Below are positions 12,571-21,813 of a DNA stretch of 21,813 bases, one piece after another (position 1 is the first letter of the stretch; every line of letters begins with the position of its first letter). Both the position numbers and the translations under genes were made by a program. The DNA lies in assembly GCA_028284025.1 (NCBI GenBank), contig JANQSM010000229.1:1-21813 (forward strand), read 5' to 3'. The stretch is from Alphaproteobacteria bacterium (GTDB lineage: Bacteria > Pseudomonadota > Alphaproteobacteria > JANQSM01). A model generated the notes under the pieces. The model had not been told where the DNA came from. It did no database searches and worked only from the letters and a program-made list of their open reading frames with translations.

Positions 12571-13355
12571 CGATTGGGACTACCTAAGCCTACAAACAAC
12601 AGCCCTTGTTCTAAACGGCTGAGCGGCTTTTCTGTTGAGGCCGGTCCAAGACGCATTTTAGCATCTTTCAAAAACTTGGCAGGCCAGGAATCATCCAGAA
12701 CTTGTAAGGAGAGTGAACGGTACCCTTCCACTGCATGCACTGCTTTTGAAAGCATATCTTTTGGCATAACACGCATGCTGATTTCATACACCAACTCAAA
12801 TTCTTCACGCGTTAAAGAGACATTCTCCTCACATACACTACCTGTTGACCGAACAGTTATTAATCGACCTGACGGAATTAAAAATTGCTGCTGTTGATCC
12901 GTCGGCATTTCATCACGTAAATCCATGAACCAGGGGATATTAGAAGTTTGACATTTAGTCATCAACATTAAGCACGTAGCCTGCAGCATGGTGTATAATT
13001 GGGATCCTTTATACGCTTTAATCAAATCAGAATCATCCGTCTGCTCTATTTCTTTCTTTACATCCTCTGGAACACGCACCCATCCATCCTGTCTCAGGGC
13101 CATCCACCACTTCTCTAATTCTCGTACATGGTGTCGCAATAAAGATGGGTTGTGCTGAATCTTCAAAAAAACCTTCAGCATAAACAAAGGGTTTAAAGGC
13201 CGCGGGCGGTCAGATTCACCCAGACTATTTGCAAGCCCGCGGAAAAAATCAATACGTTCCGTTTCCGTTTCAAGACGGGGGAGATCAAACACATCGGGTG
13301 ATAAAAAAGATGTATTTTGCCCAATTTCTATTTTTAGTGCGTCTGTAGCAACCAT
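12567..13355 (-). CDS. Conserved-looking hypothetical protein, 262 residues
   Basis: I do not recognise a family. The 262-residue product is soluble, with no signal peptide and no membrane segment. It looks largely helical in the middle (FMLKVFLKIQ, then HHVRELEKWWMALR, then YTMLQATCLMLMTKC) and more strand-rich near 150-175 (QFLIPSGRLITVRS). Composition and codon use match the surrounding housekeeping genes, the start has its own plausible promoter (13389-13417), and no other long frame competes, so I take it as real. It converges on the methyltransferase gene with a four-base stop overlap (CTAA). The context gives no functional hint. Confidence 0.72.
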   Translation of the reverse strand: MVATDALKIEIGQNTSFLSPDVFDLPRLETETERIDFFRGLANSLGESDRPRPLNPLFMLKVFLKIQHNPSLLRHHVRELEKWWMALRQDGWVRVPEDVKKEIEQTDDSDLIKAYKGSQLYTMLQATCLMLMTKCQTSNIPWFMDLRDEMPTDQQQQFLIPSGRLITVRSTGSVCEENVSLTREEFELVYEISMRVMPKDMLSKAVHAVEGYRSLSLQVLDDSWPAKFLKDAKMRLGPASTEKPLSRLEQGLLFVGLGSPNR

Positions 13356-13388
13356 ATTCTGTCTTTTCTTTTCTCAAAATAGCCCCAA

Positions 13389-13417
13389 AGTATAGCATAA
13401 AATATCCGTATTGGCTA
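13389..13417 (-). promoter_or_regulatory. Extended -10 sigma70-type promoter for the 262-residue hypothetical gene
   Basis: On the minus strand, TAGCCA (13417-13412) is followed after 17 bases by TATACT (13394-13389). The TATACT is preceded by TGC, forming an extended -10. This places the expected start of transcription near 13382, about 27 bases before the ATG. The rest of the gap to the tRNA (13356-13517) shows no other clear signal; a weak TTGAAT (13468) / TGTTAC (13492) pair could serve the tRNA. Confidence 0.5.
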
Positions 13418-13517
13418 TACCCAAAAAGCTCTTTACCCTAATGTTCTGACCTGCTAGATAGGATATCTTGAATTAAACCGCAGTCTTTGCATGTTACCAC
13501 AAAATTGAATGATTTAT

Positions 13518-13605
13518 GGAGAGGTGGCAGAGCGGTTGAATGCACCGGTCTTGAAAACCGGCATAGGGCGACCTATCGTGGGTTCGAATCCCACCCTCTC
13601 CGCCA
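13518..13605 (+). tRNA. tRNA-Ser(UGA)
   Basis: This is an 88-base cloverleaf with encoded CCA. The acceptor stem GGAGAGG (13518-13524) pairs with CCTCTCC (13595-13601), then discriminator G and CCA (13603-13605). The anticodon stem CCGGT/ACCGG encloses loop CTTGAAA with anticodon TGA at 13552-13554. A long class II variable arm precedes the T-arm GTGGG-TTCGAAT-CCCAC (13578-13594). The long variable arm and anticodon together identify serine. Confidence 0.97.
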
Positions 13606-13785
13606 TCCTCCGTCGCTATGGCCCAAAGAGCCATAAGCTATGGAGGACGAGGTGTGCGAGTTGAGAACCCACGATATTATAAAGTGGGTTCGGTGACGAT
13701 CAACGGGAGGAACGACGCCGAAGGCGGCCCTGAGCAAAGCGAAGGGTGAGCTGCCCGAACTATCCCACCCTCTCCCCCATGATAT
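13606..13785 (+). repeat. Palindromic element containing an inverted T-arm fragment and a split duplicate of the tRNA-Ser 3' end
   Basis: Directly after the tRNA lies a chain of inverted repeats. TCCTCC..ATGGC (13606-13622) pairs with GCCAT..GGAGGA (13630-13647). GAACCCAC (13665-13672) pairs with GTGGGTTC (13684-13691), an 8-bp stem. A GC-rich palindrome with a CCCTGAGCAAAGCGAAGGG core (13728-13746) resembles common bacterial intergenic REP-like repeats. ATCCCACCCTCTCC plus CCAT at 13762-13780 repeats the tRNA 3' end (13588-13606) with 18 of 19 bases identical. GTGGGTTCG at 13684-13692 repeats the 5' half of its T-arm. GAACCCACGAT (13665-13675) is the reverse complement of tRNA bases 13575-13585. 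Confidence 0.7.
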
Positions 13786-13815
13786 AAAAAATGGGGTCAG
13801 ACGGCCCCATTTTTT
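13786..13815. terminator. Bidirectional rho-independent terminator
   Basis: ATGGGGTC (13791-13798), a 4-base AGAC loop and GGCCCCAT (13803-13810) form a stem of about 8 bp (one G-T wobble). It is flanked by a run of A on the left and a run of T on the right, so it can work on either strand. It would stop tRNA-Ser transcription before the exporter gene. The last bases of the tRNA-like repeat (CCCCAT, 13775-13780) could pair with ATGGGG as an alternative fold. Confidence 0.75.
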
Positions 13816-13857
13816 GTGTCATTTTGTGGGAGGTGGAGAAACGGAGAAGTTTTAACG

Positions 13858-14775
13858 TTGGCAAAACTTATACAACTTCATTTTAATAAAAATCTGCTCC
13901 CTTACGGAGTATTATGTAGCAATGTTTTGGATGACGTGTTTTTAGGATTTGTGTTACTTAGTATACATCCGTTTATTGCCATGCCTGTTTGGTATGCTTC
14001 AGCTGCAGCAATAGGAACAATAGCCTATTTCATTACGAAAAGTGAAAAAGCAAGACTCAAAACACTTTTGTGCTATTGGCCGTATACGTTGGGATTTTTA
14101 CTTTTTTCAATGCTGTCCGGTTTTTGTTGGTTTCTTTCAGTGCACTACCTAGGGATAAGCGGCAATACAGTTATTGACCAGTCGCATTACTTGATCCTTA
14201 TTTTGTGGAGCCTTCTCGTTTTCAAAGAATCCATTTCTAAGCATCAGTGGTATGGAGCCAGTATTATTTTCACAGGTCTTTTAATTTTTGCATTAGGCTC
14301 AGAAAACGTAGGTGATTGGCTCGGTATTTTCTTTGCCAGTCTAATGGCCATAGGTGTTGCCGGAGCAATTATTTCCAAAAAATATGCTGCTGGAAAAATT
14401 AATCATAATGTTTTGGTAACATTACGCGCCTGGCTAATGTTTGCCGTAACTTTAATTATTAGCCTAAAATTCAATAATAAAGGTATCGCAGCTTATGATT
14501 TGGCTTATACAATATGGATTGCACTTATAATCGGTGGGGCTATCGGGGCCGGATTAAGCCACCATTTATCCTTAGCAGCCCTTAATCATGTAACTCTTTC
14601 TACATACACATTTGTACAAATGCTGCATCCGCTCGCCATTTTAACCATTGGCGTTTTATTCTATGGTGATGATTTAAGTAACTTGCAACTTTTAGCAGCA
14701 AGTTTTGTACTTGTAGGAAAACTAACCTTAATCACAGGTAAAAAGCAGCAAGCCAGCAAAGCTTCAGTTCTATGA
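13858..14775 (+). CDS. DMT superfamily (EamA-type) small-molecule exporter
   Basis: This is a polytopic protein with about 10 hydrophobic segments in two repeats of five, the layout of EamA/RhaT-type drug-metabolite transporters. Typical pieces are FLSVHYLGISGNTVIDQSHYL near the end of the first half, LVFKESISKHQWYGASIIFTGL, and the second-half equivalent TFVQMLHPLAILTIGVLFYGDDLS. The substrate is unknown. The frame is open from a GTG at 13816, but that codon lies inside the terminator T-run with no ribosome site. A TTG at 13858 with GGAGAA about 9 bases upstream is the better start (305 residues); no ATG exists near the N-terminus. Base composition is AT-rich (sampled lines 30-45% GC) compared with the genes to the left, suggesting later acquisition. 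Confidence 0.82.
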   Translation: MAKLIQLHFNKNLLPYGVLCSNVLDDVFLGFVLLSIHPFIAMPVWYASAAAIGTIAYFITKSEKARLKTLLCYWPYTLGFLLFSMLSGFCWFLSVHYLGISGNTVIDQSHYLILILWSLLVFKESISKHQWYGASIIFTGLLIFALGSENVGDWLGIFFASLMAIGVAGAIISKKYAAGKINHNVLVTLRAWLMFAVTLIISLKFNNKGIAAYDLAYTIWIALIIGGAIGAGLSHHLSLAALNHVTLSTYTFVQMLHPLAILTIGVLFYGDDLSNLQLLAASFVLVGKLTLITGKKQQASKASVL

Positions 14776-14909
14776 AAGAGCTTGAAAAGTGTTGAAGGCG
14801 TATCCAGAAAGCAGCTCTCTTAAACCTAAGCAGGACACCCCAATAGAGAAAATTTGGACCTGTTGACCTTCACTCCGCCATCAACGCTAAACTCCTGATG
14901 GAAATGTAT

Positions 14910-14938
14910 TTGAACTCGCTGCGCTTGTTGGGTATAGA
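14910..14938 (+). promoter_or_regulatory. Sigma70-type promoter of the SBP/ABC operon
   Basis: TTGAAC (14910-14915) and TATAGA (14933-14938) are separated by exactly 17 bases, in the 192-base gap upstream of SBP1. Each box matches consensus at 4 of 6 positions. The expected start is near 14945, leaving a short leader with a GAAGG ribosome site (14956-14960) 7 bases before the SBP1 ATG. The rest of the gap has no clear terminator or operator. Confidence 0.5.
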
Positions 14939-14967
14939 TAGTACGTCCCAGAAAAGAAGGTAAAGTT

Positions 14968-15843
14968 ATGAAAAATATTGGCGTTTATATTGTTGCAATC
15001 ATCTTAGCCATCGGTGCGACACTGGCAACGCAGCATTTTACAGCAGCACCCAACGGCCAGTCAGCCATGGCAGAGAAAAAAGAATCCGTCTATGACCGTG
15101 TTACAGCTTCTGGCACATTACGCTGTGGGTATTTCATCTGGCCGCCTGCGGTGATGAAAGATGAAGCTACAGGCGAATTAACAGGGTTTATCGTTGATTA
15201 TTTTGAAGCCTTAGGCCAAGCCCTGGACTTAGAGGTGGAATGGAGCCAGGAGTTAAACTTTTCAACTTATCTGCAAGACCTAAATGCTGGCCGATATGAT
15301 ATTGAATGTTCTGGCGGCTGGCCCAATGCAAGCCGTGGGAAGCTGGTGGATTATACAACACCCATCGGTTATCTGCCGATGTACGGCTATACCCGTGCCG
15401 ATGACACCCGCTTTGATAACAATTTAGATGCTATTAACAACCCCGATGTGCGCTATGTGGCCATTGATGGGGAAACGTCAGCCCATATCAGAAAGCGACG
15501 TTTTCCTAATTCGACGCTGGTCTCTCTGCCGCAAATCACGCCATTTACAGACCTTTTGCTTAACGTAGAAACAGGCAAAGCCGACGTTGCAGTGATTGAT
15601 GCAAGCCAGGCGTATGGATATTTGTCTGCCAACCCAGGCAGCATCCGACGTGTGGCCTCTGACCCTATCCGTGTTTTACAAATGAACGCAGGCGTGGCGC
15701 AAAACAACTTTGAGTTTCTGGAAATGATCGACACGGCTACCAAAGAGCTGATTTACGATGGCGTGATTGATCAAATCTTGAATAAGTATGACCCCACTCA
15801 AACCCAAATCCTGCGCCTTACAGACCCCTATGAGGTAAATTAA
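14968..15843 (+). CDS. SBP1: membrane-anchored family-3 (polar amino acid type) solute-binding protein
   Basis: The 291-residue protein starts with one hydrophobic segment (about 5-23, GVYIVAIILAIGATLATQ) and no lipobox cysteine, so it is probably anchored at the outer face of the inner membrane, though cleavage cannot be excluded. A polar linker follows, then an SBP_bac_3 domain (about 45-285) with TLRCGY as first strand, a YDIECSGGWP segment, RADDTRFD (143-150) and GKADVAVID. It has exactly two cysteines, Cys53 and Cys114. Arg123 lines up with the Arg that binds the ligand carboxylate in amino-acid-binding members. Composition near 50% GC resembles the permease and ATPase genes. First gene of the operon; its TAA overlaps the SBP2 ATG by one base. 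Ligand unknown. Confidence 0.85.
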   Translation: MKNIGVYIVAIILAIGATLATQHFTAAPNGQSAMAEKKESVYDRVTASGTLRCGYFIWPPAVMKDEATGELTGFIVDYFEALGQALDLEVEWSQELNFSTYLQDLNAGRYDIECSGGWPNASRGKLVDYTTPIGYLPMYGYTRADDTRFDNNLDAINNPDVRYVAIDGETSAHIRKRRFPNSTLVSLPQITPFTDLLLNVETGKADVAVIDASQAYGYLSANPGSIRRVASDPIRVLQMNAGVAQNNFEFLEMIDTATKELIYDGVIDQILNKYDPTQTQILRLTDPYEVN

Positions 15844-16727
15844 TGAAGCATCTCCCCGTTTATATCACCGCCATTATCCTGGCCGTTGCAGCCAGTTACA
15901 TTTCAGTGCAGGTATTTATGCCGGAAGGCGAGACCGTGCGGGAGCAGGAGGAATCTGTCTATGACCGTGTGATGCGGACAGGTACGATTCGCTGCGGGTA
16001 TGCTACATGGAATCCATCCTTGATGAAAGATCCAAATACTGGTGAATTTTCTGGAATTATATATGAATACAGCGAGGCTTTAGGGAAAACGCTCAACCTA
16101 GATATTGAATGGGTAGAAGAAATTCCTTGGAGTGAATTCCCAGCAGCCCTTGAAGCTAAGCGTGTCGATGTTATGTGTGCAGGAGTTTGGCCAAGCGCCA
16201 ATCGTTCCAGGATTATAGACTATAGCAATCCAGTATATTATGTCCCATTTCTTCCGTACGGAAGAATTGATGATTTTAGGTTTGATCAAAACCTTAAAAA
16301 ACTAAACAATCCTGACTACACACTAACAATGACCGATGGAGAGACATCATCTATAATCGCGCATCAAGATTTTCCAAACACTAAAAAGGTTGAATTACCT
16401 CAACTAACTAATATTTCGCAGAATTTTTTAAATGTTGTAAATAAAAGGGCAGATGTTTATCTGAATGATCTTACATCATTCTATGATTTTAATGAAAATA
16501 ATCCTGACTTATTAAGGATCATTCCTACTGACAGACCAATACGCTTGTTTGGTGTTGTAGTTGCAATCCCCCGTGAAGAAGAAGGATTGAGACGAATGAT
16601 TAATAATGCAACTGCAGAACTCCACCAATCAGGAGTAGTTGAAAAAATTCTCAGAAAATATGAAAAATACCCAGGAAGTTTGTATAGAACTGCAAAGCCT
16701 TATCAGCCTTATGAGGTGCCAAATTAA
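15843..16727 (+). CDS. SBP2: membrane-anchored family-3 solute-binding protein with a composition break
   Basis: This 294-residue paralog of SBP1 has an N-terminal hydrophobic segment at 5-21, then SBP_bac_3 with TIRCGY, DVMCAGVWP, RIDDFRFD, and a C-terminal KYEKYPGSLY tail. The only cysteines are Cys51 and Cys112; Arg121 is at the presumed ligand site. By hand count the first 180 bases are 52% GC, whereas 16021-16680 is about 36.5%, with the change at about codon 60, just after the first strand. This points to a replaced ligand-binding body. The start overlaps the SBP1 stop (TAATG), with an in-gene GAGGT as ribosome site, and its own stop overlaps the permease ATG in the same way. Confidence 0.85.
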   Translation: MKHLPVYITAIILAVAASYISVQVFMPEGETVREQEESVYDRVMRTGTIRCGYATWNPSLMKDPNTGEFSGIIYEYSEALGKTLNLDIEWVEEIPWSEFPAALEAKRVDVMCAGVWPSANRSRIIDYSNPVYYVPFLPYGRIDDFRFDQNLKKLNNPDYTLTMTDGETSSIIAHQDFPNTKKVELPQLTNISQNFLNVVNKRADVYLNDLTSFYDFNENNPDLLRIIPTDRPIRLFGVVVAIPREEEGLRRMINNATAELHQSGVVEKILRKYEKYPGSLYRTAKPYQPYEVPN

Positions 16728-17392
16728 TGACCGTCATTGATATTCTTATCAATTATCGTCAGGCTTTTTTACAGGGGCTGTGGGTGACGTTGGAGCTTTC
16801 GGCCATCATCTGGGGCAGCGGTATTTTAATTGGTGGCGCTTTGGGCGTGTGGGGGGCAGACAGCTGGAAATCTGTGGGTATCCCCAGCCGACTTTTCTCA
16901 TTTTTGCTCTCTGGCGTACCGATTCTGGTATTTTTATTCTGGCTGCACTATCCGGCGCAAGCCATGTTTGACTTGGTGATTGACCCGTTTTATACAGCCG
17001 CGCTCACGCTAGCTATTGTGAACATTTTTGGCGTGGCAGATGTGGTGCGTGGCAGTCTCATGGACTTTCCAAAGCAATATCTTACCGCTGCCCGTGTGAC
17101 TGGGTTAACCACCAAACAAACGGTGCTGAAAATTCAACTACCGCTGATCTTTCGCCAGATTCTGCCCGCACTTCTCTTACTGCAAGTGACGATGCTGCAC
17201 ACCACGCTATTTGCCAGCCTTATTTCAGTGGAAGAAATTTTCCGTGTGGCTCAACGCATCAATGCACAAATTTATAAACCCGTTGAAATTTACACCGCCC
17301 TTGGTATCTTTTTCCTGGCGGTTAGCTTGCCAGTCAACGGCATGGCCTTCTGGCTAAAACATAAATTTACACGCAACCTATCGGAGAATTAG
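16727..17392 (+). CDS. ABC transporter permease, polar amino acid (HisM/GlnP) type
   Basis: This 221-residue inner-membrane subunit has about five hydrophobic segments. The ATPase-contacting EAA loop reads TAARVTGLTTKQTVLKIQLP, close to the consensus with G and I-LP spaced as expected. Length and loop match the single-domain permeases of family-3 amino-acid uptake systems. Such systems in Gram-negative bacteria often have two different permeases; only one is encoded here, so a homodimer (as in GlnP-type systems) or a second subunit elsewhere is inferred. GC is about 51%, unlike the AT-rich genes on either side. It is coupled to SBP2 by a one-base overlap. Its tail (GGAGAA just before the TAG) supplies the ribosome site for the next gene. 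Confidence 0.88.
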   Translation: MTVIDILINYRQAFLQGLWVTLELSAIIWGSGILIGGALGVWGADSWKSVGIPSRLFSFLLSGVPILVFLFWLHYPAQAMFDLVIDPFYTAALTLAIVNIFGVADVVRGSLMDFPKQYLTAARVTGLTTKQTVLKIQLPLIFRQILPALLLLQVTMLHTTLFASLISVEEIFRVAQRINAQIYKPVEIYTALGIFFLAVSLPVNGMAFWLKHKFTRNLSEN

Positions 17393-17399
17393 AATTCCG

Positions 17400-18257
17400 A
17401 TGCTTCATGAAAATACTTATGAATTTGATGGTATTAAAGTTCTTACTGATAAGCTAAATCGCTTACGATCAGATGATAACGATAATGTGATGGAGATATT
17501 TTACGAAGAGCAACCAGCTTCTTGGCTCTTTGTAATGGATGCTCTCAAAAAAGGCTTCTCTGGTAGTGCGCCTAAATTTTTAGATATAGGTTGTGGGTGT
17601 GGAATATTTGGCCTTTTAGCAGCTAAACATTTAAAGGCTGAAGTTACAGCTATAGATATCAGCTCACGTGCTATTGAATTTACAAGAGAAAATGCTAAGC
17701 TCAATGGCCTTGAATTAAACTTGAAACATGAAGCCTATTCAAAAGAAAGTTTTGCTGCAAATGCAGCTGATATTATATGTATGAATCCCCCATTCCACAT
17801 CTACCCGAGGGAATTTGAAACATCTTTACCCCAGCATGCAAGAGGAGGATCAGATGGACAAACTGAATTTAAATCTCAGCTGACAATAGCATTTAGTCAT
17901 CTATCAGCTAACGGATATTTATTTTTTGTGATTATGTGCGGAGGTGACGACCAACAGCCTGATTTTTGCAACTACATTCCTAGTATATTTAAAAATCGTA
18001 GCTTAGTTTACACTAATATACTACCACCCATTTCTTCGCGAGATTTTATGTTTCAACTCTATGGAGAGAAATACCAATATTTTACTAGAAACTATGAGGC
18101 AAGCTTTCCTTGGATTTACTATTGTACTGGTCTAGTAAAGGCTACTTCTGATTCATCAGAAATAACTTGTAAGCAGCACAGCATTGACCTCAAAGGCAGA
18201 GGCTGGAGTGATCGTATTGAACTTCACCAAGCAATTAATGAGCATGTTATAAATTAG
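17400..18257 (+). CDS. Class I SAM methyltransferase, MTS/NPPF type, inside the transporter operon
   Basis: The 285-residue soluble protein has motif I FLDIGCGCGIFGL (60-72), an acidic post-I residue in TAIDIS, and NPPF at about 128-131. NPPF/Y motifs are typical of enzymes that methylate amino groups in planar systems (RsmC, PrmC, TrmN6-like). The 60-residue N-terminal and about 100-residue C-terminal parts are not recognised, so the substrate is unknown: RNA, protein or a small molecule. By hand count the first 300 bases are about 37% GC, well below the neighbouring permease (51%), which suggests insertion of a foreign gene. It starts 7 bases after the permease stop and ends with TAG embedded in the GGAG ribosome site of SBP3, so it is translated within the operon. 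Confidence 0.82.
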   Translation: MLHENTYEFDGIKVLTDKLNRLRSDDNDNVMEIFYEEQPASWLFVMDALKKGFSGSAPKFLDIGCGCGIFGLLAAKHLKAEVTAIDISSRAIEFTRENAKLNGLELNLKHEAYSKESFAANAADIICMNPPFHIYPREFETSLPQHARGGSDGQTEFKSQLTIAFSHLSANGYLFFVIMCGGDDQQPDFCNYIPSIFKNRSLVYTNILPPISSRDFMFQLYGEKYQYFTRNYEASFPWIYYCTGLVKATSDSSEITCKQHSIDLKGRGWSDRIELHQAINEHVIN

Positions 18258-18269
18258 GAGAACTGAATA

Positions 18270-19157
18270 ATGAAAAACCTACCCATTTACATTACCGCAA
18301 TCATCCTTGCTGTTGCGGCTACTTTGCTAACACAGCAGTTTTCTGCTTCTACAGCTGTTGATCAAAATCAGATAAGTACACCTTCTGAGAGAGAATCAAT
18401 TTATAAGCGTGTTTTGAGAACTGAGACTATACGCTGTGGCTATCTCACTTACCCTCCTGAAATTGTTGTTGATTCGCAAACAAATCAAATCTCAGGCTGG
18501 GTTTATGAAATCATTGAAGCTGCGGCTAAAGAGCTTAATTTTAAAGTAGAATGGGTTGAACAAGTTACTCACGACAGCATGTTTCAAGGGCTTCAAACAG
18601 GTCGCTATGATGTTATCTGTAGTGGGCTTTGGGAATCTCCTCCTCGCAGTAAGGTGGCTTTATTTATGACACCTGTAACTTACGCAACATACTACCCATT
18701 TGTTCGCGCTGATGATACGCGGTTTGATAACGATTTAAGACTCATCAATTCAGAAGATGTTAAGATCGCCGTGGCTGATGGAGAATATGGGGAAGTAGTT
18801 GCTCGTGAAAAGTTCCCGAGTGCTGGTCTGCATAGTATTCCTCCTGGAACCTCCTACTCGCTTATCTTTCCTGATGTAGCAACCGGTAAGGCAGATGTGG
18901 TTTTCGCCTTACCTTCTACCGCTAGCCATTACATGAAGAACAACCCTGGGAAGTTGAAAATGATTGATCAAGAAGTTTTGGTTATGCCTTCATCTGTCAT
19001 GTCAACGAATGTGGGGGAGCATAAGCTTAAATATTTACTTGATAGTACTTTACGCCATCTCCTCAATACAGGTGTTGTTGCTAATATCATTGCCAAATAC
19101 CATCCAGGTGATGACAAAACTAATTATCCAGTAGCAAGACCATATCAGGAGAATTAA
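18270..19157 (+). CDS. SBP3: membrane-anchored family-3 solute-binding protein
   Basis: This 295-residue paralog has hydrophobic segment IYITAIILAVAATLLTQQF (6-24), almost the same as in SBP1, SBP2 and SBP5. A long polar linker follows, then the SBP_bac_3 body: TIRCGY, YDVICSGLWESPPR, RADDTRFDNDL, VATGKADVVF, and a C-terminal ARPYQEN. Cys56 and Cys117 are the only cysteines; Arg126 is the presumed carboxylate ligand. Here the WP of the other copies is WE. Sampled lines are about 42% GC, intermediate. Ribosome site GGAG (18257-18260) lies 9 bases before the ATG. Its last codons carry an AGGAGAA (19147-19153) that serves SBP4, whose ATG follows the TAA by one base. Confidence 0.85.
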   Translation: MKNLPIYITAIILAVAATLLTQQFSASTAVDQNQISTPSERESIYKRVLRTETIRCGYLTYPPEIVVDSQTNQISGWVYEIIEAAAKELNFKVEWVEQVTHDSMFQGLQTGRYDVICSGLWESPPRSKVALFMTPVTYATYYPFVRADDTRFDNDLRLINSEDVKIAVADGEYGEVVAREKFPSAGLHSIPPGTSYSLIFPDVATGKADVVFALPSTASHYMKNNPGKLKMIDQEVLVMPSSVMSTNVGEHKLKYLLDSTLRHLLNTGVVANIIAKYHPGDDKTNYPVARPYQEN

Positions 19158-19158
19158 T

Positions 19159-19986
19159 ATGTTGCAAAAATTGATCTTCTTTGCTGCCGCTTTGTTTCTT
19201 TTGCCAATTTCTGCTTATGCAGATCCAGTTATGGATCAAATCAATAAAACACAAACTATCCGTTGCGGTTATGTTTCGTATAGTCCTGCGTCTACAATCA
19301 ATCCTGAAACTAACAAGCTGGAAGGATATATGATTGACCTTATGGATGAGATTGGCCAACGCATGAATCTCAAAATCGAGTGGGCTCAAGAAACAAATTG
19401 GCCCACAATGTCCACAGATTTAAAAACAAATAAGTTTGATGCAGGGTGTGTGGCATATTGGAGTAATCCGCGTTCTGCCCGCCAAATGCTGACCAGCATA
19501 CCGCTTTTTTATCAGCCTGTATTTTTCCTGACACGTGCAGATGACACGCGTTTTGATGCAAATATCAGAAAAATAAATGATAAAGATGTTAGCGTTTCTG
19601 TTCTAGAAGGAGATGTGCCTGAAACTATTCTAAAAGAACTCTACCCAAATTCGAAAAAAATCGCTCTACCGCAAAACGCTGCTTTTGCCCAAGTGTTTCA
19701 AGAAGTTGCCTCTGATAGAGCTGATGTAACAATCGCGGCCAAACCCGATGCCGAACAGTTTATGAAACATAATCCAGGTATTCTCAAAGTGATTAATGAT
19801 CAGCCTGTTCGTCTTTATGCAAATGTCATGACGATGCGCCCTGGCTCTGAACAGCTTAAAAATGCTCTAGACGTTACCATTCGTGAAATGCAGCTAGATG
19901 GCACTATTGAAAGAATTATGAGCAAATACTCAAATAGTGAAGATGATTATTATATAATCGAATATCCCTATAAGAAGTTGAAATAA
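19159..19986 (+). CDS. SBP4: secreted (soluble) family-3 solute-binding protein
   Basis: This is the odd member of the five. Instead of the shared anchor it has a classical Sec signal peptide, with a hydrophobic core at 5-18 and a probable cut after AYA (residue 21), followed at once by the domain (TIRCGYVSYSP). The mature protein should be free in the periplasm. SBP_bac_3 landmarks are RADDTRFDANI, VLEGDV and SDRADVTIA. The only cysteines are Cys36 and Cys97, again 61 apart. The ligand-site Arg is shifted by one (Arg105 at Cys+8 instead of Cys+9), and the tail YIIEYPYKKLK differs from the other copies. Ribosome site AGGAGAA lies inside the end of SBP3. Stop to SBP5 start is 16 bases, with GAAAGG between. 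Confidence 0.85.
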   Translation: MLQKLIFFAAALFLLPISAYADPVMDQINKTQTIRCGYVSYSPASTINPETNKLEGYMIDLMDEIGQRMNLKIEWAQETNWPTMSTDLKTNKFDAGCVAYWSNPRSARQMLTSIPLFYQPVFFLTRADDTRFDANIRKINDKDVSVSVLEGDVPETILKELYPNSKKIALPQNAAFAQVFQEVASDRADVTIAAKPDAEQFMKHNPGILKVINDQPVRLYANVMTMRPGSEQLKNALDVTIREMQLDGTIERIMSKYSNSEDDYYIIEYPYKKLK

Positions 19987-20002
19987 GAAAGGTATTTATC
20001 CT

Positions 20003-20890
20003 ATGAAAAATTTATCCATCTATATCGCCACCATCATCCTGGCTATCGGTGCGACGCTCATCACCCAGCATTTTACGGCTCCACAAAATAACGCGACGGC
20101 GGTGTCCTCACAAGAAAAGGAATCCGCCTATGACCGCGTGATGCGTACGGGAACGATAAGATGTGGGTATGCGCTCTGGGAACCAGGGTTTATCGCCGAC
20201 CCTAATACGGAAGAAATTACAGGCTTAATTCCTGAAATTATGAATACCTTTTCTAAATACGCAGATATTAAAGTTGAGTGGACAACGGAAGTTGACTGGT
20301 CAAGAGTACCTCAGGAGTTAGAGCAAAACAAAGTAGATGTGATGTGTGCTGGTATGTGGCCCGATGGGAGGCGAGGTAAGTATATTATTCATTCCAAGCC
20401 GCTTATGGTTATGGCAGCACGTGTTTTTATGCGTGCTGGCGAAGCCGCCCAATATTCTTCGTATGAGAGCCTGAATAAACCTGATATGACATTTGCGGTT
20501 GTTGAGGGTGATATTTTACAAAAAATAGTGGATATTAATTTCCCAAAAGCCAACCAGCTTGATCTTTTGGGTATTGCAAATGCAGCTGAAAACCTTACTT
20601 CCGTTGCGGCTGGAAAAGCAGATGCCACCATAAATATTAATTCTGTTGTACAGGGTTTTTCGCGGAGCAATCCAGGGCAACTTGAAGCAGTTGACCTACC
20701 ACCCATTTCTTACCATCCTATTGTACTTGCGACTTATAACAGTGAAGATAAACTGATAAACTTTATCAATGCGACTCTCACACACATGCACTACGCAGGG
20801 GAGTTTAAGAGGATATTGAAAAAGTACCAGAATCAATATCCTGGATCTTTCTATTCACCCCTCATTCCTATTAATTTTATGGAAAACTAA
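20003..20890 (+). CDS. SBP5: membrane-anchored family-3 solute-binding protein with a composition break
   Basis: The 295-residue paralog has anchor IYIATIILAIGATLITQHF (6-24) nearly identical to SBP1, even at the nucleotide level in stretches. The next part (ESAYDRVMRTGTIRCGY) is nearly identical to SBP2. The body diverges: the RADDTRFD of the others is replaced by RAGEAAQYSS, while DVMCAGMWPDGRR keeps Cys115, Trp119 and Arg123/124. The only cysteines are Cys54 and Cys115. The tail KYQNQYPGSFY resembles SBP2. By hand count 20041-20220 is 53% GC, falling to about 41% over 20221-20580. The TAA overlaps the ATPase ATG by one base. Confidence 0.85.
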   Translation: MKNLSIYIATIILAIGATLITQHFTAPQNNATAVSSQEKESAYDRVMRTGTIRCGYALWEPGFIADPNTEEITGLIPEIMNTFSKYADIKVEWTTEVDWSRVPQELEQNKVDVMCAGMWPDGRRGKYIIHSKPLMVMAARVFMRAGEAAQYSSYESLNKPDMTFAVVEGDILQKIVDINFPKANQLDLLGIANAAENLTSVAAGKADATININSVVQGFSRSNPGQLEAVDLPPISYHPIVLATYNSEDKLINFINATLTHMHYAGEFKRILKKYQNQYPGSFYSPLIPINFMEN

Positions 20891-21618
20891 TGCTCCACGC
20901 CACAAACATTCATAAAGCCTTTGGCGAAAATAAAGTTCTGAAAGGCATTGATATTGAGATCAAGCCCGGCACCATCACGTGCCTGGTGGGACCGAGCGGG
21001 ACAGGCAAGACAACACTTTTGCGTGCTTTGTCAGTTCTGGATTTACCGGATCAAGGAACGGTGACGATTGATGGGGAATCTCACAGCTTTCCGTTAAAAG
21101 AGGGTGAAGTCATCACGCCCCCCTACCCCCAATTGACCGTGGTATTCCAATCACTGTTCCTGTGGCCGCATTTGACCCTACGCGAAAATATCATGCTCCC
21201 GGCGGGTAACATTGCACGAGATGATATTCATGCTGACCTGGATGAGCTGATCACATTTTTTGAGATGGAGCATTTTATTGATAATTACCCTAATCAGGCA
21301 AGTTTGGGGCAGCGACAGCGCGTGGCGTTGGCACGCGCCCTGATGCTTAACCCGAAATATATTTTGATGGACGAAATCACCAGCAGCCTGGATGTGGAGC
21401 AAATTCACAAAATTCTCACCAAGCTGGAAATGCTGAAAGAAAAAGGTATTGGCATTTTTTTGATCACGCACCTATTGAACTTTGCCAAGCGCGCGGCGGA
21501 TAATATTTGTTTTATTGATGATGGAAAGATTATTGAATCTGGCCCGCCCTCCATTCTGCAAAAACCTAAAACAGACCGGTTGAAGCAATTTGTCTCCGTT
21601 GTTGAAGCGGCGAGCTAA
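20890..21618 (+). CDS. ABC transporter ATPase, polar amino acid uptake type
   Basis: This 242-residue cytoplasmic ATP-hydrolysing subunit would power the permease encoded at 16727-17392. Walker A is GPSGTGKTT (34-42), Q-loop Gln87 lies in VVFQSLFLWPHLTLREN, Walker B ILMDE ends in Asp161-Glu162, and the switch His194 lies in LITH. All catalytic residues are present. The ABC signature is unusual: ASLGQRQRV (137-145) in place of LSGGQ, keeping Ser and the second Gly but losing the first Gly. The D-loop region reads EITSSLD where EPTSALD is usual. GC returns to host-like values. It is the last gene of the operon, with no strong terminator; only a 5-bp hairpin (21634-21647) without a T-run follows. 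Confidence 0.93.
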   Translation: MLHATNIHKAFGENKVLKGIDIEIKPGTITCLVGPSGTGKTTLLRALSVLDLPDQGTVTIDGESHSFPLKEGEVITPPYPQLTVVFQSLFLWPHLTLRENIMLPAGNIARDDIHADLDELITFFEMEHFIDNYPNQASLGQRQRVALARALMLNPKYILMDEITSSLDVEQIHKILTKLEMLKEKGIGIFLITHLLNFAKRAADNICFIDDGKIIESGPPSILQKPKTDRLKQFVSVVEAAS

Positions 21619-21668
21619 CGCACCCCGCCATCCGCCTTTATCAAGGCTCTGGGAATGACACAACATGA

Positions 21669-21697
21669 TTGACATCCTTAAAAGATGTGCCTATACA
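21669..21697 (+). promoter_or_regulatory. Sigma70-type promoter for tRNA-Met
   Basis: A perfect -35 TTGACA (21669-21674) and a -10 TATACA (21692-21697) are separated by 17 bases, about 40 bases upstream of the tRNA. This is the best promoter match seen in the window and sits in the 119-base gap after the ATPase gene. Two short hairpins are also present: ACATC/GATGT in the spacer, and GAAA..GCTA/TAGCTTTC (21710-21730) between promoter and tRNA. Confidence 0.7.
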
Positions 21698-21737
21698 CAT
21701 AAGTCCCGTTGAAAGAGCTAGATAGCTTTCATACTGT

Positions 21738-21813
21738 GGCGGAGTAGCTCAGCTGGTTAGAGCAGCGGAATCATAATCCGCGTGTCGGGGGTTCAAGTCC
21801 CTCCTCCGCTACC
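21738..21813 (+). tRNA. tRNA-Met(CAU), elongator type, cut by the window edge after CC
   Basis: Acceptor GGCGGAG (21738-21744) pairs with CTCCGCT, with a G-U at the first pair, then discriminator A and CC; the final A of CCA lies just outside the window. D-arm AGCTC-AGCTGGTTA-GAGC, anticodon stem GCGGA/TCCGC and loop ATCATAA with anticodon CAT at 21772-21774. T-arm is GGGGG-TTCAAGT-CCCTC, with one G-T pair. The base-paired first position rules out initiator tRNA. A lysidine-modified tRNA-Ile2 is the only alternative, but the sequence matches my knowledge of alphaproteobacterial elongator tRNA-Met. Confidence 0.93.

Follow-up and report, generated by a model that had tools for sequence, protein, structure and literature searches.

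How many different receptors will one ATP-binding cassette (ABC) pore accept, and how do genes for receptors come to be scattered over a genome when the pore gene is not? Both questions become testable with an eight-gene cluster from an alphaproteobacterium (GenBank assembly GCA_028284025.1), carried on contig JANQSM010000229.1, whose 21,813 nucleotides (nt) are the window of this study. Open reading frame (ORF) calls place on the plus strand, in this order, the genes for two solute-binding proteins (SBP1 and SBP2), a permease, a methyltransferase, three further binding proteins (SBP3, SBP4 and SBP5) and an ATPase. The joints, in gene order, are -1, -1, +7, +12, +1, +16 and -1 nt. ORFs and Pfam thus agree with a first-pass annotation, made from the letters alone, that saw five SBPs, a single permease, a single ATPase and a methyltransferase closely packed in one orientation, with -1 to +16 bases from gene to gene. 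The features are (lengths in amino acids, aa):

SBP1, 14968..15843, + strand: SBP_bac_3, 291 aa; long hydrophobic N-terminal leader; Arg and Asp at the alpha-amino-acid positions
SBP2, 15843..16727, + strand: SBP_bac_3, 294 aa; long hydrophobic leader; Arg and Asp; top PDB match 5jos, then AncCDT-1
Permease, 16727..17392, + strand: BPD_transp_1, 221 aa; TIGR01726 match; sole PDB match 4yms_D
Methyltransferase, 17400..18257, + strand: MTS/HemK-like, 285 aa; NPPF motif
SBP3, 18270..19157, + strand: SBP_bac_3, 295 aa; long hydrophobic leader; Arg kept, Asp position is Leu
SBP4, 19159..19986, + strand: SBP_bac_3, 275 aa; Arg position is Ser (Arg one residue before), Asp position is Ala
SBP5, 20003..20890, + strand: SBP_bac_3, 295 aa; long hydrophobic leader; Arg kept, Asp position is Ile
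ABC ATPase, 20890..21618, + strand: 242 aa; Walker A GPSGTGKT; signature ASLGQ, not LSGGQ

All five SBPs hit SBP_bac_3 with 63-76 bits against a cut-off of 26.4, and the other Pfam scores are 45 bits for the permease (BPD_transp_1), 106 for the ATPase (ABC_tran) and 57 for the methyltransferase (MTS). We think it probable that these genes form a hub, in which one ABC core of the polar-amino-acid type is served by five SBPs that each catch a ligand of their own and dock on the same permease. Two permease copies would pair up and work with a homodimer of the ATPase, while the SBPs would each bind a periplasmic ligand of their own, most likely an amino acid or something amino-acid-like, before docking on the shared permease.

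Class of the importer core

The cluster is most likely a polar-amino-acid (HAAT, family 3) ABC importer, judged by family matches, with amino-acid transport as its putative role. The permease falls, at the borderline, in the class of three-transmembrane (3-TM) His/Glu/Gln/Arg/opine permeases described by TIGR01726, scoring 41.5 bits as a protein (cut-off 42.2) and 43.9 in the genome search. Its top equivalog is GlnP, at 78 bits well under the cut-off of 303, and among the NCBIfam models shown no equivalog cut-off is reached by the SBPs, the permease or the ATPase. The PDB entry matched by the permease, 4yms, is presumably an Art(QN)2-type amino-acid importer. The ATPase has Walker A (GPSGTGKT), a signature (ASLGQ) and a Walker B DE with the catalytic Glu. 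Across 45 ATPases, that of the window and those of 44 other loci, the signature reads xS[LIV]GQ in 35, xSGGQ in 8 and ASRGQ in 1, with none found in 1.

Leaving out a Chloroflexi outgroup (L045), the window permease is 45-81% identical to those of relatives, versus about 50% at most for the SBPs; the pore is therefore the steady part and the receptors the changing one. The core is conserved across related small-genome Alphaproteobacteria, with an SBP set that varies widely in number and lies partly beside the core and partly elsewhere.

One permease gene and many SBP genes in related genomes

The window genome (G000) comprises 1.33 Mb in 321 contigs, is 85% complete and is the sole genome of its own order in the compared set. 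A genome search finds five SBP_bac_3 matches, every one inside the window cluster, and three BPD_transp_1 permeases, namely the window permease and a YejB/YejE pair on contig C235. NCBIfam models call the pair YejB and the matching microcin C permease, both over cut-off; the latter we take to be YejE, and the candidate identification of the pair as phosphate PstCA was rejected. Yej works with a different SBP family. Because the only other permeases are this pair, the assembly offers the five SBPs a single candidate pore of family 3, and SBPs outnumber cores five to one in the 85% of the genome that is represented.

We then have the relatives. SBP_bac_3 was searched in 39 genomes and TIGR01726 in the 37 that bear the permease (E <= 0.001). 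Every one of the 39 contains SBP_bac_3, with 1 to 31 matches each, and 36 of the 37 have exactly one TIGR01726 match (11/37 are over the curated cut-off); no match reached the threshold in G122, whose permease is severed by a contig end. Counted without regard to class, there are 3-6 BPD permeases in each of 36 permease-bearing genomes and 0 in G122. The extremes are G085 and G010, each with 31 SBP_bac_3 matches and just three BPD permeases, the hub and the Yej pair, while G268 (99% complete, 19 SBP matches) has PstC and PstA besides these. Long frames in G085 and G007 had hinted at two-SBP fusions, which the ORF calls resolve into separate adjacent genes. The first-pass proposal that five receptors feed one pore has good support, as an inference, from the lone permease of its class in the assembly and from the repetition of the pattern in relatives, lineages that would accordingly seem to rest uptake of this class on a single pore with several to many receptors.

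The permease is uncommon in the class, occurring in 9 of 385 genomes drawn, G000 included (E <= 1e-40), and is found in 25/142 genomes of the order of G003, a Micavibrio genome. Pore and receptors in this order are mostly together or both missing: SBP_bac_3 matches occur in 25/25 permease-bearing genomes vs 16/117 others, leaving 101 with neither (Fisher p 2e-17, uncorrected for shared ancestry). They total 227 (1-28 per genome) in genomes with the permease and 25 in those without; the count for G085 is 28 in this search and 31 in the 39-genome search, where more candidates were scored.

Several points weigh against a hub. G069 has seven SBP_bac_3 matches and no permease of the class, so that SBPs can exist without the core, or else the G069 assembly is incomplete, and 15 other permease-less genomes of the G003 order have 1-3 matches. 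Only 1-3 SBP matches are present in 8/25 of the permease-bearing genomes of this order. The assemblies are drafts, with G000 at 85% and completeness figures given for few of the relatives, and a further permease may therefore be missing from them. The SBP_bac_3 counts may include enzymes or sensors, surroundings having been examined for 105 dispersed matches, and the ratios of SBPs to permeases cover this set alone.

Two permease-less genomes (G021, contig C71, and G111, contig C12) carry SBP_bac_3 within long open frames, of 815 aa and 923 aa respectively, which may encode multidomain or sensor proteins.

Permease loci of relatives

The number of SBPs adjacent to the permease in related genomes, a count suggested in the first-pass annotation, runs from 0 to 6 across 54 loci. 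Besides the window these are 53 loci, 45 from a scan of permease contigs (including the distant Chloroflexi locus L045, permease identity 28%) and eight added, with L088 and L090 dropped as repeats. No SBP adjoins the permease in 13 loci, one does in 16, two in 13, three in 6, four in 3, five in 2 and six in 1; 21 of the 54 arrays, the window's too, come within 1 kb of either end of their stretch and may be truncated.

SBPs lie between permease and ATPase in 18/54 loci, window included. This layout is thus shared rather than new, and expansion within the operon, which the first-pass annotation read from the separation of permease and ATPase, is not supported. The window is a high-count case of a common pattern, in a compact form with all SBPs found in the genome in the core operon. 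The recurrence of permease, ATPase and SBP clustering in other genomes also shows that the association is not due to chance.

The locus L039, in a metagenome-assembled genome labelled Micavibrio aeruginosavorus (G014), has permease and ATPase, and G014 has three SBP_bac_3 matches. For strain ARL-13 of M. aeruginosavorus, a predator, the published genome description reports a lack of any known transporter for amino acids, peptides or amines (PMC3189940).

A single TAG falls within the permease match of L083 (G053) and of L085 (G122).

Binding-protein genes inside housekeeping operons

Dispersed SBP genes were studied in 80 stretches around SBP_bac_3 matches, which we chose among the matches listed for 10 permease-bearing and 5 permease-less genomes. 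A family model finds 105 SBPs in 77 of the 80 stretches; across all 80, no permease relative was found, and four ATPase-like genes were. The ATPase-like gene of L160 is the continuation of the G032 core operon, interrupted there by the end of a contig, and the one of L152 is probably the core ATPase of G006, detached from its permease. On contig C23 of G006 (L013, L152) the permease and this probable core ATPase are ~30 kb apart, with an SBP array beside each.

Counting adjacent copies as one, the SBPs form 81 units. A gene of the same strand lies no more than 120 nt away on each side of 26 units, on just one side of 44 and on neither side of 11. Pfam or NCBIfam names both flanks of 17 two-sided units, one flank of 8 and none of 1 (L133, unscanned). 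Twelve of the 26 sit between two genes of one well-known operon, as we take the flanking pairs (nuo, pet, pnt, pha, prp, mre, car and pyrH/frr) to be. The sites nuoB/nuoC, nuoG/nuoH, nuoL/nuoM, petA/petB, prpD/prpB, mreB/mreC, carA/carB and pyrH/frr are occupied once each, the last in the permease-less G069, and pntA/pntB and phaA/phaB twice each (stretches L117, L119, L120, L128, L129, L130, L131, L134, L136, L149, L157 and L158).

The nuo operon of G081 (contig C20; L128, L130, L179) contains four SBP genes, one at nuoB/nuoC, two past nuoC and one at nuoG/nuoH. Other genomes serve as controls: nuoB and nuoC, split by an SBP in G081, have just 4 nt between them in G006, and nuoC and nuoD, with intervening SBPs in G081 and G006, abut in G007, where the ORFs overlap by 8 nt. 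One of the five nuo regions fetched, L183 (G268), had no nuo gene. Some sites look inherited: the SBPs at phaA/phaB and at pntA/pntB, and one close to topA, each have a reciprocal best match in a second genome, with 64-68% identity; the nuoC/nuoD SBPs of G081 and G006 are not reciprocal best matches.

SBP genes placed inside housekeeping operons would be expressed constitutively. Their occurrence between complex I subunit genes, or between carA and carB, calls for caution in deducing function from operon neighbours.

Origin of the binding proteins

The first-pass annotation suggested tandem duplication inside the operon as the source of the five SBPs and proposed a tree to see whether they arose in this lineage. 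The five are 26-42% identical pairwise, hence real and old paralogues. A tree was built for 196 SBPs, 92 from permease loci and 104 dispersed, and in it every one of the five window SBPs is joined first by SBPs from other genomes (support 0.84-1.0). Operonic and dispersed SBPs intermingle. SBP3 and SBP4 belong to a wider clade of 11 members (0.835) and SBP1 and SBP2 to one of 57, while SBP5 is the most isolated, its top relative being 35% identical. A paralogue from the same genome is included for 179 SBPs and is the nearest relative of 9 of them, a number that may be an undercount since the SBP sets of other genomes are incomplete; the median best identity is 36% within genomes and 50% between. 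The window set of five is complete, and none of the five is closest to an operon neighbour. Recent tandem duplication is therefore rejected for the window operon. Relatives of SBP4, SBP2 and SBP3 occur in another order in L084, and this, with the nearest SBPs being in other genomes, indicates that the paralogues are old and reshuffled.

The same divergence, together with the grouping of each SBP with those of other genomes, would also fit a chance gathering of unrelated SBPs from other transporters, which we regard as highly improbable. The nearest relatives of the window SBPs stand beside an orthologous permease (as in L084, L009, L011, L004 and L037) or away from any, and none was seen beside a different permease. 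Homologues next to different permeases of their own, which the annotation had named as evidence for such a gathering, were looked for and not found, with zero permeases in the 80 dispersed loci, and for the loci examined the explanation is rejected.

Leaders and ligand sites

Four of the window SBPs have unusual long hydrophobic leaders, while the N-terminus of SBP4 looks like a short signal peptide of the classical kind. When SBPs with equally similar bodies are compared, leaders resemble each other more if they come from one genome than from two, for example with mean scores of 38.5 vs 24.4 at 30-35% identity. The effect is strong in the window, which scores 85.2 over 6 pairs, the short-leadered SBP4 being left out. 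This likeness is absent in some genomes, such as G533 (24.6) and G003 (21.3). Recent gene conversion was considered for the leaders and rejected, the leader DNA of SBP1 and SBP5, compared by eye, having many silent differences, and any homogenisation must therefore be old. The four long leaders may hold their SBPs at the inner membrane, close to the pore.

On a wider version of the hub we are evenly divided: up to about thirty SBPs would serve one homodimeric core, and their genes would be single-gene cassettes that settle in housekeeping operons, in many genomes with a shared genome-specific leader, giving constitutive receptors that could be exchanged without touching the core.

In SBPs of the LAO/HisJ type, an Arg and an Asp grip the alpha-amino acid. 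Both residues are present in SBP1 and SBP2, Arg alone in SBP3 and SBP5, and neither in register in SBP4; in the family, 53/196 SBPs have Arg and Asp and 35/196 have Arg and Glu. Since three of the five window SBPs are without one or both residues, different ligands are favoured, and the residues as a whole point to several ligand classes across the SBPs. The five receptors may thus widen the ligand range or may act as a sensor panel, the two uses proposed in the first-pass annotation.

Some of the five could instead work in the periplasm as enzymes akin to cyclohexadienyl dehydratase, and not as receptors, since for each of them a sequence search of the PDB puts such dehydratases or their reconstructed ancestors first (E 2e-16 to 2e-23). 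The top match of four, however, is AncCDT-1 or CDT-Anc1, an ancestor that we take to be a binding protein, and just SBP2 has 5jos, called a dehydratase, at the top. Alignment column 212, which presumably corresponds to the catalytic Glu173 of cyclohexadienyl dehydratase, holds Q, S, T, D and V in SBP1-SBP5, respectively, and Glu in 10/196 family members. With no Glu at this position in any of the five SBPs, we consider an enzymatic identity very unlikely.

A weightier alternative, though one we still think unlikely, is that delivery to the permease is confined to canonical SBPs, such as SBP1 and SBP2 beside it, while the others sense or scavenge and share the operon for expression, without docking. 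The distribution of the residue pair, intact in SBP1 and SBP2 and not in SBP3, SBP4 or SBP5, counts in its favour; G069 and the 15 other genomes with SBP_bac_3 matches and no permease fit it as well, as does a histidine kinase gene beside some dispersed SBPs (L104, and L168 in a permease-less genome). Yet SBP3-SBP5 lie between permease and ATPase, in the arrangement found in 18 loci, permease and SBPs co-occur across genomes, and the named flanks of dispersed SBPs are mostly metabolic or housekeeping genes, with two histidine kinases among them. The hub, in which all five SBPs would dock on one permease, is the favoured explanation.

Comparison with known systems

Different family-3 SBPs are known to use one core in enteric bacteria, where HisJ and ArgT share HisQMP. 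That system has two SBPs and two permease genes, whereas the window has five SBPs and one permease gene.

In two reports on Borrelia burgdorferi, five OppA proteins share one Opp oligopeptide importer (PMC6719511, PMC5736914), which equals the window in having five binding proteins for one importer, in an organism with few amino-acid transporters. As described there, Opp differs in its oligopeptide SBPs and in its heterodimeric permeases and nucleotide-binding domain, against the family-3 SBPs, single permease gene and single ATPase gene of the window; and relatives of the window go beyond five OppA, to 31 SBP_bac_3 matches. GlnPQ (PMC8025302) has the same permease and ATPase classes and one pore fed by two different binding domains, but these are fused to the pore, whereas the SBPs of the window are separate genes and more numerous.

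SBPs of the tripartite tricarboxylate transporters (TTT; TctC/Bug) are over-represented in Bordetella and Rhodoplanes, reaching 434 in a genome of 8.2 Mb; most are orphans, for which a membrane component shared by several SBPs, or sensing, has been proposed (PMC5994714). Many SBPs and few membrane components are common to both cases. TTT as presented there, however, is not ABC, uses another SBP family and expanded in a lineage-specific way, while paralogues of the window type look old and shared. No TctC model matches any of the five SBPs at E <= 0.001.

A core shared by several SBPs is thus already known (Borrelia Opp), as is SBP expansion (TTT). Titles and the starts of abstracts in the open-licence literature gave no family-3 core with many SBPs and no SBP genes in nuo, pnt or pet operons.

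Other features of the window

The spacing of the eight genes makes a single transcript likely. The one visible promoter of the first-pass annotation did not hold up, since sigma-70-type sites across 13300-21813 are at chance level (19 vs 19.7 +/- 4.1 in shuffles) and the promoter scan found none on the plus strand of the 192-nt gap ahead of SBP1. A riboswitch or other leader RNA before SBP1 was ruled out, Rfam being empty at 14700-15100.

The methyltransferase gene is missing from the 53 other permease loci and from the 80 dispersed SBP loci; a single-sequence fold model of its product was unusable, with a mean predicted local distance difference test score (pLDDT) of 34.9. Upstream of SBP1 by 192 nt, on the same strand, is a gene for an EamA-type transporter (13816-14775), and genes for tRNA-Ser (13518-13605) and tRNA-Met (21738-21813) flank the region on both sides.

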